A stretch of DNA of 64,000 nt from Marinobacter nanhaiticus D15-8W (GTDB taxonomy: Bacteria > Pseudomonadota > Gammaproteobacteria > Pseudomonadales > Oleiphilaceae): assembly GCF_036511935.1 (NCBI RefSeq), contig NZ_AP028878.1, forward strand, positions 3,844,001-3,908,000, written 5' to 3'. The notes under the pieces are model-generated. The model made no database searches. It was not told the DNA's origin and saw nothing but the letters and a program-made list of their open reading frames with translations. Within the stretch, counting starts at the first letter, position 1, and each line of letters starts with the position of its first letter. The position numbers and the translations under genes were made by a program. Shown here one piece after another: positions 51,337 to 61,744 of the stretch.

Positions 51337-51376
51337 CTGTCACATGGACGTCACTCTTCGTTCATTCAACTGACAT
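51337..51376 (+). promoter_or_regulatory. Tandem PHO box upstream of olsB
   Basis: Four half-sites start exactly 11 bp apart: CTGTCAC (51337), ACGTCAC (51348), CGTTCAT (51359) and CTGACAT (51370), each compared with the PhoB consensus CTGTCAT. A CATAGG element 8 bp later (51385-51390) could be the -10. The olsB start is 47 bp after the last half-site. PhoB control of ornithine-lipid genes is known in Pseudomonas. Confidence 0.7.
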
Positions 51377-51423: not shown

Positions 51424-52197
51424 ATGTCTGCAGAACACGCCCGTTCAGTCAGCACCGCTCGTCGACTCAAGGCGTCCATCACTCGCGATCCGGCTATGCT
51501 GGAAGCTGCCCAGCGTTTGCGCTATCGCATCTTCTCCGAAGAGTACGATTCAGATCTGGGCGCCCTCACCCCGGGCATCGACCAGGACACGTACGATGCC
51601 CACTGCGATCACCTGATCGTCACGGACGTACAGACAGGCCAACTCGTCGCCACCTCTCGCGTCCTCCACCAACGCGATGCCGAGAAAACCGGGGGCTTCT
51701 ACTCCGAAGGCGAATTCGAACTGGAGAACCTCTACCAGTTGCCTGGCCAACTCGCCGAACTCGGTCGCACCTGCGTGCACCCCGACTACCGTAACGGCGC
51801 GACAATAAGCCTGTTATGGTCCTCCGTAGCCGAATACCTGGTCCGAGAGAATGTGGACTACATGATCGGCTGCGCGAGTATCAGCATGGCCGATGGCGGC
51901 CATAAGGCCTGGCGTATCACCCAGCAGCTGCAGCAGCGCTACATGACGGACCGGACACAACGGGTCAGCCCTCGTCGCGCCCTGCCCCACATTACCAACG
52001 CGTCGGGCTATCATGCGGTGGATATCCCCCCGCTGATTCGTGCCTATATGCGACTCGGCGCCCGAGTCTGCGGTGAACCCTGTTGGGACCCCGAATTCCG
52101 CTGCGCCGACCTGTTGGTCCTACTGGAAGTCAAAAAGCTGGCTAGCCGCTACAGTCGCCATTTCATGCGCCCCGCCGAAGAGCCAGGGTCATGCTGA
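51424..52197 (+). CDS. olsB: Ornithine N-acyltransferase OlsB (GNAT fold)
   Basis: OlsB transfers a 3-hydroxyacyl chain from acyl-ACP to the alpha-amino group of ornithine, giving lyso-ornithine lipid. The 257-residue product has the family segments LRYRIFSEEYDSDLG, LAELGRTCVHPDYRNGATISLLW and GCASISMADGG. It overlaps the downstream acyltransferase by 7 bp, the usual olsB-olsA pair. AGAGAA precedes the ATG, and a tandem PHO box lies upstream. Confidence 0.88.
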   Translation: MSAEHARSVSTARRLKASITRDPAMLEAAQRLRYRIFSEEYDSDLGALTPGIDQDTYDAHCDHLIVTDVQTGQLVATSRVLHQRDAEKTGGFYSEGEFELENLYQLPGQLAELGRTCVHPDYRNGATISLLWSSVAEYLVRENVDYMIGCASISMADGGHKAWRITQQLQQRYMTDRTQRVSPRRALPHITNASGYHAVDIPPLIRAYMRLGARVCGEPCWDPEFRCADLLVLLEVKKLASRYSRHFMRPAEEPGSC

Positions 52198-53006
52198 TGA
52201 AATCCTTCCGGCTGGTCAGCCGGCTCGCCCTGTTCAGCCTGGCCCTACTGGTCTGCACGGTACTCGCGCTGGGGATCTCATCGATCGAGCTGGTTACCCG
52301 GCGCAAAGTGAATCGCACACCTTTCGCCTGCTTCTGCTTTGGTTTGGCGAATCGCTGCCTGGGCTTCCGTGTGAACATCCGGGGCGTGAGACCGGATCGA
52401 ACTGTGCTGCTGGTCAGCAACCACATCTCGTGGTCCGATATTCCCATCCTCGGCGGCGTACTTCCGCTACGCTTCCTGTCGAAGGTCGAGGTGCGCACCT
52501 GGCCGGTCATCGGCTGGCTTGCCGAGCAGGCAGGGACCCTCTTTATCCGCCGCGGCGGCGGCCAGGCCCGGGCCACCCGAGACCAGATCGCCGACACGCT
52601 TCGCAGCGGTCAGTCGGTACTGGTGTTCCCGGAGGGCACTACGACATTGGGTATTACGGTTTTGCCTTTCCACGGCCGTTTGCTGTCGTCAGCCATCGAC
52701 GCCGAAATTCCGATCCAGCCGATCACTATCGGCTACCGGAGGAACAATCATCCCGATCACCTTGCGCCTTTCATCGGAGACGACCAATTCGAGCACCACC
52801 TGATTCGAATGCTGCGCGAGCCGGCAGTCTCGGTCGACATCATTTTGCACGAACCCGTGCTGGTAAGGGCCGGCGATGACCTTCAGGCGGTTACCCAGGC
52901 GCTGCACGATCAGATCCAGGCTGGGCTAAACGACATCCATCAGGGCTCGAACCAGAGCGGGAAAGCGTCCGGGTTTCCAACAGCGCCTCTCGGCCTTGGT
53001 TCTTAA
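52191..53006 (+). CDS. olsA: Lyso-ornithine lipid O-acyltransferase OlsA (PlsC family)
   Basis: OlsA adds the second acyl chain to lyso-ornithine lipid. The 271-residue PlsC-family protein has an N-terminal membrane helix (about 10-33), the catalytic HX4D motif H78-ISWS-D83 (VSNHISWSDIP), and the substrate-binding VFPEGTT. It starts inside olsB; ATG 52197 is an alternative that overlaps the olsB stop. Its stop overlaps the convergent SlyD-like stop within TTAA. Confidence 0.88.
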   Translation: MLMKSFRLVSRLALFSLALLVCTVLALGISSIELVTRRKVNRTPFACFCFGLANRCLGFRVNIRGVRPDRTVLLVSNHISWSDIPILGGVLPLRFLSKVEVRTWPVIGWLAEQAGTLFIRRGGGQARATRDQIADTLRSGQSVLVFPEGTTTLGITVLPFHGRLLSSAIDAEIPIQPITIGYRRNNHPDHLAPFIGDDQFEHHLIRMLREPAVSVDIILHEPVLVRAGDDLQAVTQALHDQIQAGLNDIHQGSNQSGKASGFPTAPLGLGS

Positions 53007-58716: not shown

Positions 58717-58761
58717 TTGTCACGGCGTTGTCGCCTAACTGTCATCTGGCATTTCCATAGT
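58717..58761 (+). promoter_or_regulatory. Tandem PHO box upstream of the glycosyltransferase-PAP2 operon
   Basis: Three half-sites start exactly 11 bp apart: TTGTCAC (58717), TTGTCGC (58728) and CTGTCAT (58739, perfect). A CATAGT element lies 10 bp after (58756-58761), where the -10 of a PhoB-dependent promoter would be. It faces the glycosyltransferase start at 58909, leaving a 5' leader of about 140 bases. It is also 48 bp from the divergent reductase start. Confidence 0.65.
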
Positions 58762-58908
58762 GCGGGTGTAGGAGCCGAAAGCCCGTGAACCCCAGAGTTG
58801 ATAGGCTTTCGCGCCGAATATGCGCAACCAGACTCGCAGGCAGCAAAGATTAACCGCTATTGGCGGTACCATCCAGTCTGCCCGGGTCGACGTCATGACG
58901 GAGAACAC

Positions 58909-60108
58909 TTGATCCAGCGTCAACGGCATATCGCCATCGTCACCGAGACCTTTCCTCCGGAAATCAACGGAGTGGCGAACACCCTCGGCAAACTGTGCGA
59001 GGGGTTGCGTCAGCGTGGTCATCGTTTGTCGGTGGTCCGACCAGGCCAGCGCAAGCCGGCTTCCGAGGCGGGCACTGCGGCCGTCCAGGGTCTGGCCGAT
59101 CGCATGGTCGCAGTACCCGGGTTTCCGATTCCCGGCTACGCCGACCTGCAGTTCGGTCTGTCGACCAGCCGTCGACTGGCCAGGGACTGGAAGGCAAATC
59201 GTCCGGATGTGATCTATGTGGCAACCGAAGGGCCACTGGGGCTCATGGCGCTCAATGCGGCGCGCAAGCTACAGATCCCGGTCTGTTCCGGCTTTCACAC
59301 CAATTTCCACAGCTACAGCCGCCATTACGGCTACGGCTTCCTGGAGCGGATGATCGTCGGCTATCTGCGCTGGTTCCATAACCGCACCCAACTCACGCTT
59401 GTACCGACGCGAAAAATGCAGAGCCGGCTTAACGGGCTCGGCATCCAGCCGGTCTCCGTGTGGAGTCGCGGCGTCGACTGCGACCGCTTCTCCCCGGGCA
59501 AACGTGATCGCGCCTTACGCGAAGGGTGGGGTGTCGGCGAAAGGGACCTGGCCGTGATCTACGTCGGCCGCTTGGCGGCGGAAAAAAACCTGCAGTTGGC
59601 GGTGACCGCTTTCGAGCGGCTGCGCAATATCCACCCACGGGCAAAGTTCATCCTGGTCGGCGATGGCCCCATGGGCAAGAAGCTGCGGGATCGCCACAAG
59701 GACTACATCTTCTGCGGCATGCAGCGTGGCAACGATTTAGCCCGCCACTACGCTTCTGCCGACCTGTTCCTGTTCCCCAGCAAGACCGAGACTTTCGGCA
59801 ATGTGGTGACCGAAGCGATGGCCAGCGGCCTGGCGTTGGTAGCCTTCGATGACGGCGCCGCCAGCGAGCACATCCGTAGCGAAGCCAACGGGATCAAGGT
59901 ACCGCTGGATGATCACGGCGGCTTTGTCGATGCCACCCTGCGCCTGGCCGATCAACCATCCCTGGTCAGCCACCTGCGCAGCCAGGCCAGACTGGACGCC
60001 CTGGATATCCATTGGCCCAGCCTGATCGAGCAGTTCGAGAACATCGTGTTCAATCTCCAATACAGGGAGACCCGTCATGCCGGCAAGCAAAGCGTCTCGA
60101 TTCTTTGA
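58909..60108 (+). CDS. GT4 family glycosyltransferase
   Basis: A 399-residue GT-B enzyme. The N-terminal acceptor domain begins IAIVTETFPPEINGVANTL, close in style to lipid glycosyltransferases such as MgtA, PimB and SqdX. The C-terminal sugar-nucleotide domain has YVGRLAAEKNLQLAV and the EX7E motif E294-E302 (TETFGNVVTEAMASG). TTG 58909 is chosen because GGAG lies just upstream and the family start follows at once; the frame is open back to ATG 58798. It overlaps the PAP2 gene by 32 bp. Acceptor is unknown; diacylglycerol is plausible from context. Confidence 0.85.
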   Translation: MIQRQRHIAIVTETFPPEINGVANTLGKLCEGLRQRGHRLSVVRPGQRKPASEAGTAAVQGLADRMVAVPGFPIPGYADLQFGLSTSRRLARDWKANRPDVIYVATEGPLGLMALNAARKLQIPVCSGFHTNFHSYSRHYGYGFLERMIVGYLRWFHNRTQLTLVPTRKMQSRLNGLGIQPVSVWSRGVDCDRFSPGKRDRALREGWGVGERDLAVIYVGRLAAEKNLQLAVTAFERLRNIHPRAKFILVGDGPMGKKLRDRHKDYIFCGMQRGNDLARHYASADLFLFPSKTETFGNVVTEAMASGLALVAFDDGAASEHIRSEANGIKVPLDDHGGFVDATLRLADQPSLVSHLRSQARLDALDIHWPSLIEQFENIVFNLQYRETRHAGKQSVSIL

Positions 60109-60637
60109 ACGGGTGGACCAGCGGGAATTCCTGCTGTGCCAGGTCATCAACGGCTACCTGCGGTATCGCTTCGTACTGCCCTACTTCCGGGTGGTCAGCC
60201 GGTTAGGTGATGGCTGGTTCTGGTATGCGCTGATCCTCGCCCTGCCCATCCTGCAGCCGGAGAACGGCCTCGCCCTGGCACTGCTGATGGCGGCCACCGG
60301 ACTGGTATGCACCCTGACCTATAAAGGCCTGAAGAAAACCCTGATCCGCGAGCGACCGTTCATCTCCTTCCCGGATATCCACTGTGGGACACCCCCACTG
60401 GACCAGTACAGCTTCCCGTCCGGTCATACCCTGCACGCAGTCTGCTTCAACACGTTGCTGGCTTTCACTGCACCTGAACTTGCGTTGATCATCCTGCCTT
60501 TTACGGTAAGCGTGGCCCTTTCCCGTGTCGTACTGGGACTGCACTACCCCAGCGATGTGGCCGCCGGCGCGATAATCGGTGGAAGCATGGGCACGCTCGC
60601 AACCTACACCCTGCCCGGCTTTATGATCTTCGCGTGA
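60077..60637 (+). CDS. PAP2 family membrane lipid phosphatase
   Basis: A 186-residue membrane protein with the three phosphatidic acid phosphatase motifs: KX6RP (K86-R93-P94), PSGH (114-117) and SRX5HX3D (S149-R150, H156, D160). About four to five membrane helices surround them. It starts within the glycosyltransferase gene, so the two products are made together. PAP2 enzymes dephosphorylate phosphatidate, undecaprenyl diphosphate or lipid A; phosphatidate would suit a glycolipid pathway. It converges with dinB. Confidence 0.9.
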   Translation: MPASKASRFFERVDQREFLLCQVINGYLRYRFVLPYFRVVSRLGDGWFWYALILALPILQPENGLALALLMAATGLVCTLTYKGLKKTLIRERPFISFPDIHCGTPPLDQYSFPSGHTLHAVCFNTLLAFTAPELALIILPFTVSVALSRVVLGLHYPSDVAAGAIIGGSMGTLATYTLPGFMIFA

Positions 60638-60679: not shown

Positions 60680-61744
60680 CTACTCGAAAAGACGCAGCTG
60701 CTGCGTCGGCGCTTCCTCTTCGCGGAAACGCACCCCCAGCCCCAGCAGGCGAACCGGCCGACTGGCGTCGGTATACAGGGCCTCCACCAGAGGTTGAAAA
60801 TCCTCCACTCCCGGGACCTCGATATTCTCCCTGACCCGCTCCAGGGTATGGGTGGAGAAGTCGCTGTAGCGGATTTTCACGAACAGCTTGTGGATTGGTT
60901 TGCGTTCGGCCTTGCGCTCCAGGCGCCGCTCGAGATCCTCCACCAGCTTTTCCATGACACGATAGCAAGCCTCACGGTTGGGCAGATCCTCGGAGAACGT
61001 TCGCTCCACCGAGACCGACTTGGCGATCCGGGTGATGACCACTGGTCGATTGTCTTCGCCGCGGGCCATATGGAACAGGCGCGCGCCGTGGCGGCCGAAC
61101 CGGTCGACCAACTGATCCTGGGTAAACCCCTGGAGCTCGCCGCAGGTCGTGGCGCCCATAGCGTGGAGTTTGCCCGCCGTCACCTTGCCGACACCGAACA
61201 GCTTTTCCACCGGGAGTGTCATGACAAAATCGGCCACGTCTTCCGGGCGAATCACGAACAGGCCGTCGGGCTTCTGCCAGTCGCTGGCAATCTTGGCGAG
61301 GAACTTGTTGGGCGCGACACCGGCAGACACGGTGATACCGACCTCGTCATGTACCCTCTGGCGCAGGTAGCGCGCCATCAGCGTGGCGCTGCCATGGTGT
61401 TCGCTCACGTCGGTCACGTCGAGAAAGGCTTCGTCCAGGGACAGCGGCTCAAGGCGATCCGTCAGTTCGCGAAAGATATCCATGACCTGGCGCGATACAC
61501 GGCGGTAGCGCTGCATATCCACCGGCACCGTGACCAGATCCGGGCAGCGCCGCCTTGCTTCGGCGCCCGGCATCGCCGAGCGTATGCCATATTCCCGGGC
61601 CAGGTAGTTGCAGGTGGTCACGACACCGCGTGGACCTGCACCACCCACGGCCAGGGGAACATTACGCAGGGTAGGATCGTCACGCATTTCCACCGCGGCG
61701 TAGAAGCAGTCACAATCCAGATGAATGATTTTCCGATCGGCCAT
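60680..61744 (-). CDS. dinB: DNA polymerase IV
   Basis: DinB is the Y-family translesion polymerase of the SOS response. The 354-residue product has catalytic D10 ([12 protein letters not shown]), D104 and E105 ([11 protein letters not shown]), the helix-hairpin-helix region and the little finger domain. The C-terminus QQLRLFE is a beta-clamp-binding motif. A near-perfect LexA box lies 53 bp upstream of the start. Confidence 0.96.

Follow-up and report, generated by a model that had tools for sequence, protein, structure and literature searches.

The GT4-PAP2 operon and its PHO box

The DNA analyzed is a 64,000-nucleotide stretch of the Marinobacter nanhaiticus D15-8W genome (the window; contig NZ_AP028878.1, positions 3,844,001 to 3,908,000), which carries a two-gene operon encoding a glycosyltransferase (GT) of family GT4 and a PAP2-superfamily phosphatase. 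The features of the operon, with the basis of each assignment, are the following.

58717..58745, + strand: PHO box made up of three TGTC half-sites with an 11-bp period (positions read, window scoring, genome pattern count, shuffles, relatives L011-L014)
58756..58761, + strand: CATAGT, putative -10 element, 10 bp beyond the last half-site (position read, relatives)
58909..60108, + strand: GT4 glycosyltransferase of the Agt2 type, predicted UDP-glucuronate:diacylglycerol transferase, TTG start (Pfam, identity, tree, motif)
60077..60637, + strand: PAP2-superfamily membrane lipid phosphatase, predicted phosphatidate phosphatase (Pfam, motifs, predicted fold, 32-nt overlap with the GT)

The three half-sites and the CATAGT element described in an earlier note on this DNA were all found in place. 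The half-sites read TTGTCAC (58717-58723), TTGTCGC (58728-58734) and CTGTCAT (58739-58745), and make up the top-scoring PHO triple of the window, both strands considered (score 15.2, runner-up 12.9). Pho promoters follow a spacing rule, direct repeats of CTGTCAT with a period of 11 bp ending about 10 bp before the -10 element, and the window site conforms to it, the gap between last half-site and -10 being 10 bp as in the phoA promoter of E. coli. Two sites matching the strict pattern TGTC-N7-TGTC-N7-TGTC are present in the 5,406,315-bp genome (two contigs), none matching the same pattern read backward. One is the GT4 promoter, the other falls in a stretch that opens 99 bp upstream of a plcP homologue, and no other gene of this genome shares the strict triple site. 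Ahead of the GT, the best-scoring box was equalled by 1 of 1000 shuffles, p values for ten other window genes, monitored as controls, ranging from 0.08 to 0.92. Here and below, the best box in each upstream stretch was scored against 100 to 1000 shuffles preserving single-base composition only, and each p value refers to a single locus and is uncorrected. The triple box and a 'ttccatagtg' -10 region are preserved in L011-L014, and 'ccatagta' is present in L069 and L070. PHO control of the operon is very likely, binding of PhoB to the box being predicted.

The GT4 gene starts with TTG at 58909, behind cGGAGaacac, and stops at 60108. Its reading frame shares 32 nt with that of PAP2, in agreement with the overlap reported in the earlier note; the overlap is exactly 32 nt in all six Marinobacteraceae relatives, a constancy suggesting that the two genes are probably translationally coupled. 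In Acinetobacter, a gap of 20 to 31 nt lies between GT and PAP2 (four of seven loci measured). The downstream neighbour of PAP2 is a dinB-like gene on the opposite strand (60680-61744).

The glycosyltransferase

The GT matches the Pfam domains Glyco_transf_4 and Glyco_trans_1_4. It is 52% identical to Agt2 of Pseudomonas aeruginosa PA7 (L031; 382 columns, 376 bits), and 29% identical to Agt1 of the same strain (127 bits). In a tree of 72 rows, L056 (no match) and L058 (a fragment below the score limit) having been left out, the protein groups with Marinobacter sequences within a 63-row side holding PA7 Agt2 (support 100/100), Agt1 being placed on a separate side of 9 rows; the tree is midpoint-rooted, and the placement of Planctomycetes rows and of several long branches on the Agt2 side is unsure. 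The region ETFGNVVTE corresponds to E-x7-E, which we take to be the catalytic motif of GT4 enzymes. The motif is retained in Agt2 and in the Acinetobacter rows, the first E being replaced by D in L013, L016 and Agt1. All the NCBIfam GT4 models listed score far below cut-off (best, 147.6 of 480). There is good reason to assign the protein to the Agt2 type, Agt2 being the closest characterised relative found. A new kind of enzyme was also considered, and is ruled out by the 52% identity to PA7 Agt2 and the grouping with Agt2 in the tree; the GT4, regarded in the earlier note as part of a different route, thus does not lie outside the known one.

In P. aeruginosa PAO1, Agt2 (PA0842) is reported to form glucuronosyl-diacylglycerol (GADG) from UDP-glucuronate and diacylglycerol (DAG), both in vitro and in cells, and to be induced by phosphate stress (Jones et al. 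2021, PMC8528852). The PA7 agt2 gene adjoins plcR-, plcH- and ceramidase-like genes, matching the gene order that PMC5150637 reports for PA0842-PA0845. By analogy with the PAO1 assays, the sugar added by the window GT is probably glucuronate. A nucleotide-sugar dehydrogenase encoded in the genome is most like UDP-glucose 6-dehydrogenase (above the TIGR03026 cut-off, below that of TuaD), and the host can probably make UDP-glucuronate.

The GT4 family is broad, several polysaccharide GT models match the protein weakly, and small PAP2 proteins often act on undecaprenyl diphosphate, all of which would suit a pair devoted to a polysaccharide or another glycoconjugate, the GT using a polyprenyl-phosphate or sugar acceptor and PAP2 recycling the carrier. 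Such a role is improbable in view of the identity to PA7 Agt2, of the use of DAG by PAO1 Agt2 in vitro (PMC8528852), and of the strict triple PHO site common only to plcP; no polysaccharide gene was recognised adjoining the pair. Still less probable is a product such as a glycosylated ceramide or another non-DAG lipid, on the model of Caulobacter Sgt1 and Sgt2. PhoB-regulated GTs of Caulobacter do make a glycosphingolipid (PMC6445935), yet the closest characterised relative found for the window GT is Agt2, whose acceptor is DAG, in a comparison that did not extend to Sgt1, Sgt2 or sphingolipid genes.

The PAP2 phosphatase

The second gene product matches PF01569 with 78.2 bits, and the three PAP2 motifs (K86-x6-RP, P114-SGH, S149-R-x5-H-x3-D) are intact, as the earlier note had it, their key residues being invariant across 14 aligned sequences. 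The predicted fold is that of a compact membrane protein with six long helices, in keeping with both the motifs and the fold expected of a membrane PAP2 enzyme, and leaves the substrate undecided. Among NCBIfam equivalogs the best match is SepP, an undecaprenyl-diphosphatase (56.7 bits of 250); PgpB gives 40 of 261, and both are below cut-off. The nearest solved chain is LpxE, by sequence (E 2.7e-9) as by fold. Structural alignment gives 24 and 23% identity to LpxE (6ebu) and B. subtilis PgpB (5jki), two compact membrane PAP2 proteins for which we know of no Agt partner. Gene partners, and the complementarity with PlcP described below, make phosphatidate a fairly likely substrate. The proposal of the earlier note, that PAP2 makes DAG from phosphatidate for the GT, stands in so far as PAP2 is, judging from its gene partners, a plausible DAG source; the substrate itself is predicted from the same associations.

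A plcP homologue elsewhere in the genome

Ten metallophosphoesterase matches were detected in the genome. One, at L067:5527-6375, is a PlcP homologue, 45% identical over 254 columns to PA7 PlcP, the latter recognised by its position directly before Agt1, as described for PA3219-PA3218 in PMC8528852. The genome thus encodes the PlcP-family metallophosphoesterase of the PlcP-Agt pathway. The gene resides at C1:2,124,526, the GT at C1:3,902,909, and neither a GT nor a PAP2 gene adjoins plcP in the neighbourhood read (L067). The arrangement of plcP beside agt is common, not obligatory, PA7 agt2 also lying apart from plcP. No Agt1 match was found in the genome at E<=1e-60. A PHO box (CTGTCAT-N4-GTGTCAT) is located at -89 of plcP; with a PHO-boxed plcP present, PAP2 would add to PlcP in this host and not replace it. 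A PlcP-less state of the M. nanhaiticus genome is accordingly ruled out, and the use of PAP2 instead of PlcP, as suggested by the earlier note, fails for the host itself.

Distribution of PAP2, Agt and PlcP in Pseudomonadales

Two order-level samples of 194 and 322 genomes, even draws from a larger group, were searched. With thresholds of E<=1e-60 for GTs, 1e-28 for PAP2 and 1e-20 for PlcP, the 322 genomes gave 61 matches to the window PAP2 in 59 genomes; the window GT was matched in 54 genomes, Agt1 in 21, PlcP in 120. PAP2 genes were found beside (within 400 bp, same strand) an Agt2-type GT in 39 instances, an Agt1-type GT in 8, and plcP in 8, so that 55 of the 61 adjoin one of the three.

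Agt1- or Agt2-type GTs are encoded in 69 genomes. PlcP is missing in 34, and PAP2 lies beside the GT in every one of these; 13 have both a linked PAP2 and PlcP, 22 have PlcP without a linked PAP2, and none has neither (naive Fisher p 3e-9). The tables include 43 of the 120 PlcP genomes, namely those in which an Agt or PAP2 match was also recorded; the remaining 77 were not entered. By family, PlcP-less members occur in five of six PAP2-linked families and in none of eight unlinked ones (p 0.003). The search for relatives endowed with GT4-PAP2 and devoid of plcP, suggested in the earlier note as a check, favours the idea outside the host: PlcP is missing in 28 of the 39 Agt2-PAP2 genomes, as it is in the seven Acinetobacter genomes described below. 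PlcP-less genomes include members of the host's own family, among them a single-contig genome that is 100% complete (G324).

PlcP was also looked for in named genomes, 17 of 49 loci being taken. It was found in 6/6 Marinobacteraceae and 3/3 Pseudomonas/Azotobacter, and in none of seven Acinetobacter genomes and one Halorhodospira metagenome-assembled genome (2.0 Mb). All seven Acinetobacter, A. baumannii not being among them, and the Halorhodospira genome carry GT-PAP2. The partner found beside the Agt GT is PlcP in P. aeruginosa PA7 (PlcP-Agt1) and in a verrucomicrobial locus (L049, Agt2-PlcP), PAP2 in Marinobacter, Acinetobacter and further families. In one family of genomes of about 2 Mb, all eight PAP2 matches lie beside an Agt1-type GT (L087, L088). 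No window-type PAP2 was found beside Pseudomonas GTs in the loci examined. Guilt by association points to a role of PAP2 in DAG making or phosphatidate handling.

The same data bear on the main rival, according to which PAP2 acts on another envelope substrate. The operon would then belong to an ordinary PlcP-Agt system, the GT4 using DAG made by PlcP, and PAP2, in a Pho operon, scavenging phosphate from undecaprenyl diphosphate, phosphatidylglycerophosphate (PGP) or lipid A 1-phosphate. The PHO-boxed plcP of the host fits this, as does the fact that LpxE is the nearest solved chain and an undecaprenyl-diphosphatase the best NCBIfam match, far below cut-off as it is; so do the six PAP2 matches with none of the three lipid genes as neighbour. 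Left unexplained are the presence of PAP2 beside the GT in 34/34 PlcP-less Agt genomes, that of PlcP in 22/22 genomes lacking the link, and the pairing of the same PAP2 with two GT clades and with PlcP. We regard this explanation as unlikely, though the most serious of the alternatives considered.

Several additional arrangements were observed. In the verrucomicrobial locus (L049:5977-8060) an Agt2-type GT is directly followed by plcP. In the family with PAP2-Agt1, one locus (L108:1909-6532) has PAP2-Agt1, olsB-olsA, dgkA (PF01219, 123.6 bits) and plcP within 4.6 kb. In family f28 a window-type PAP2 directly follows plcP (L083-L086), and neither Agt1- nor Agt2-type GTs were matched in these stretches. 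Ten genomes of family f38 (G039, G105, G133, G179, G217, G237, G257, G277, G315, G332) carry a pair of Agt2-type GTs in opposite orientation, spaced by about 5-12 kb; one of the two has PAP2, and PlcP was matched in 0/10. More distant PAP2 proteins (87 matches with E above 1e-28, in the 194-genome draw) number 53 in PlcP-positive genomes, 12 of these within 10 kb of plcP and none of the 12 strictly adjacent to it. In L100-L104 (families f18, f23 and f41) a GT lies between or near plcP and a distant PAP2. The GT in L102 is above the cut-off of the MJ1255/VC2487 family, and similar GT starts are present in the other loci; OlsF is found in L101, a UDP-glucose dehydrogenase-like gene in L102. These loci may form a further cluster for glycolipid synthesis under phosphate starvation, its GT being unstudied.

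PHO boxes in relatives

Boxes upstream of the GT beat all 200 shuffles in 6/6 Marinobacteraceae and 6/7 Acinetobacter loci. Pseudomonas-type GT loci reached p<0.05 in 10 of 21 cases. In a batch of 20 chosen, not random, loci of further families, p was <=0.03 in 9/11 loci of PlcP-less genomes, and <0.05 in 1/3 PAP2-linked loci of genomes with PlcP.

The olsBA neighbourhood

About 6 kb upstream of the operon, the window contains olsB and olsA.

51337..51354, + strand: putative PHO box of olsBA, CTGTCAC-N4-ACGTCAC, 87 bp before olsB, weak alone
51424..52197, + strand: olsB-like ornithine N-acyltransferase (NF052555, 159 bits, below the cut-off of 320)
52191..53006, + strand: olsA-like lyso-ornithine-lipid O-acyltransferase (NF052553, 142 bits, below the cut-off of 300)

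A PHO-like box occurs at -87 of olsB in the window as in the Marinobacter loci L013, L014 and L015 (p 0.015, 0.000, 0.005 and 0.009, respectively). Pho control probably extends to the synthesis of ornithine lipid, and the region reads as a neighbourhood for phosphate-free lipids.

Proposed pathway

Upon phosphate starvation, PhoB would bind the triple PHO box and activate the two-gene operon. PAP2 would remove phosphate from phosphatidate, diverting lipid synthesis to DAG, and the Agt2-type GT4 would add a sugar, probably glucuronate from UDP-glucuronate, the predicted product, glucuronosyl-DAG, being an acidic lipid in place of an acidic phospholipid. In the host, the separate, PHO-boxed plcP may provide additional DAG from phospholipid breakdown; in PlcP-less relatives PAP2 would be the dedicated DAG source of the pathway. 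Of the different glycolipid route suggested in the earlier note, the PHO promoter, the operon and a plausible DAG supply by PAP2 survive; a GT4 foreign to the Agt2 type and a host without plcP do not.

A number of observations weigh against this scheme. PAP2 stands equally close, in sequence and fold, to the phosphatases of lipid A 1-phosphate, PGP and undecaprenyl diphosphate. Correction of the co-occurrence counts for phylogeny goes no further than the family level, and genomes devoid of PlcP may have other phospholipases C, for which no search was made. Of the 47 genomes in which PAP2 adjoins an Agt GT, 13, the host included, keep PlcP, and 6 of the 61 PAP2 matches adjoin none of Agt2-type GT, Agt1-type GT and PlcP. 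The PHO box missed p<0.05 in 1/7 Acinetobacter loci, in 11/21 Pseudomonas-type loci, and, in the batch of further families, in 2/11 PlcP-less and 2/3 PlcP-positive PAP2-linked loci; the p value for PA7 agt2 is 0.12, a Pho box at P. aeruginosa agt2 being reported by Jones et al. (PMC8528852). On balance, a PhoB-activated PAP2-Agt2 operon for a phosphate-free membrane lipid remains the reading we favour, with moderate confidence.

The broader proposal is that PAP2 is a second, widespread, PlcP-independent module of DAG supply in Pseudomonadales, linked to Agt2, Agt1 or PlcP, and replacing PlcP in Acinetobacter and in no fewer than four further families, or parts of families, of the sample, the A. 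baumannii lipid U3 being a glycosyl-DAG; taken as a whole, we consider the chances for and against it evenly balanced. At low phosphate A. baumannii is described to form ornithine lipids, lysine lipids and U3, the last given no assignment and not listed with the ninhydrin-positive lipids (PMC11828411). In its main text that paper uses none of the words glycosyltransferase, PAP2 and agt. On the present proposal, U3 would be made by the GT-PAP2 pair.

The occurrence of lipid renovation in response to phosphate limitation has been charted from the presence of plcP (e.g. PMC4796936). If PAP2 can replace PlcP, organisms missed by such maps, Acinetobacter included, would have a full route, one that would divert new synthesis at phosphatidate instead of breaking down existing phospholipid. 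GT-PAP2 would supply a candidate for U3, and an example of the PlcP-independent DAG supply inferred by Jones et al. from the little GADG retained in a P. aeruginosa plcP mutant (PMC8528852). As no linked PAP2 is found in Pseudomonas, the GADG of that mutant shows only that Agt2 can draw on DAG not made by PlcP.

Comparison with known systems

No Agt-PAP2 pair was found in titles or abstract starts among the literature matches listed, most subscription journals being outside the coverage; one paper (PMC6258164) contains the words 'PAP2 family', 'Pho regulon' and 'glycosyltransferase'. Both words, 'PAP2' and 'PlcP', were found together in two papers, which by title deal with plants. According to Sebastian et al. 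(PMC4796936), DAG must derive from phosphatidate or from phospholipase C action, PlcP being favoured for marine heterotrophs. For the glycolipids of cyanobacteria, DAG comes from phosphatidate, not from phospholipase C, as proposed here (Nakamura 2007, cited in PMC4796936); the likeness is by description only, and, unlike the present case, that discussion mentions no Pho operon containing an Agt-type GT. By description only, the window GT is also similar to the Agt of Agrobacterium tumefaciens, a bifunctional glucosyl/glucuronosyl-DAG synthase (Semeniuk et al. 2014, as cited), in being a phosphate-starvation GT acting, by prediction, on DAG.

The closest likeness is to the renovation system of P. 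aeruginosa formed by PlcP, Agt1 and Agt2 (PA3219, PA3218, PA0842; PMC8528852), from the main text of which the word PAP2 is absent. M. nanhaiticus similarly has an Agt2-type GT4 and a PlcP homologue, both PHO-boxed. Unlike in P. aeruginosa, the GT resides in an operon with PAP2, not by plcR/plcH, and plcP stands alone. The operon is best described as a variant of PlcP-Agt lipid renovation, in which the Agt2-type GT is known and PAP2, as probable partner or stand-in of PlcP, is the new element.
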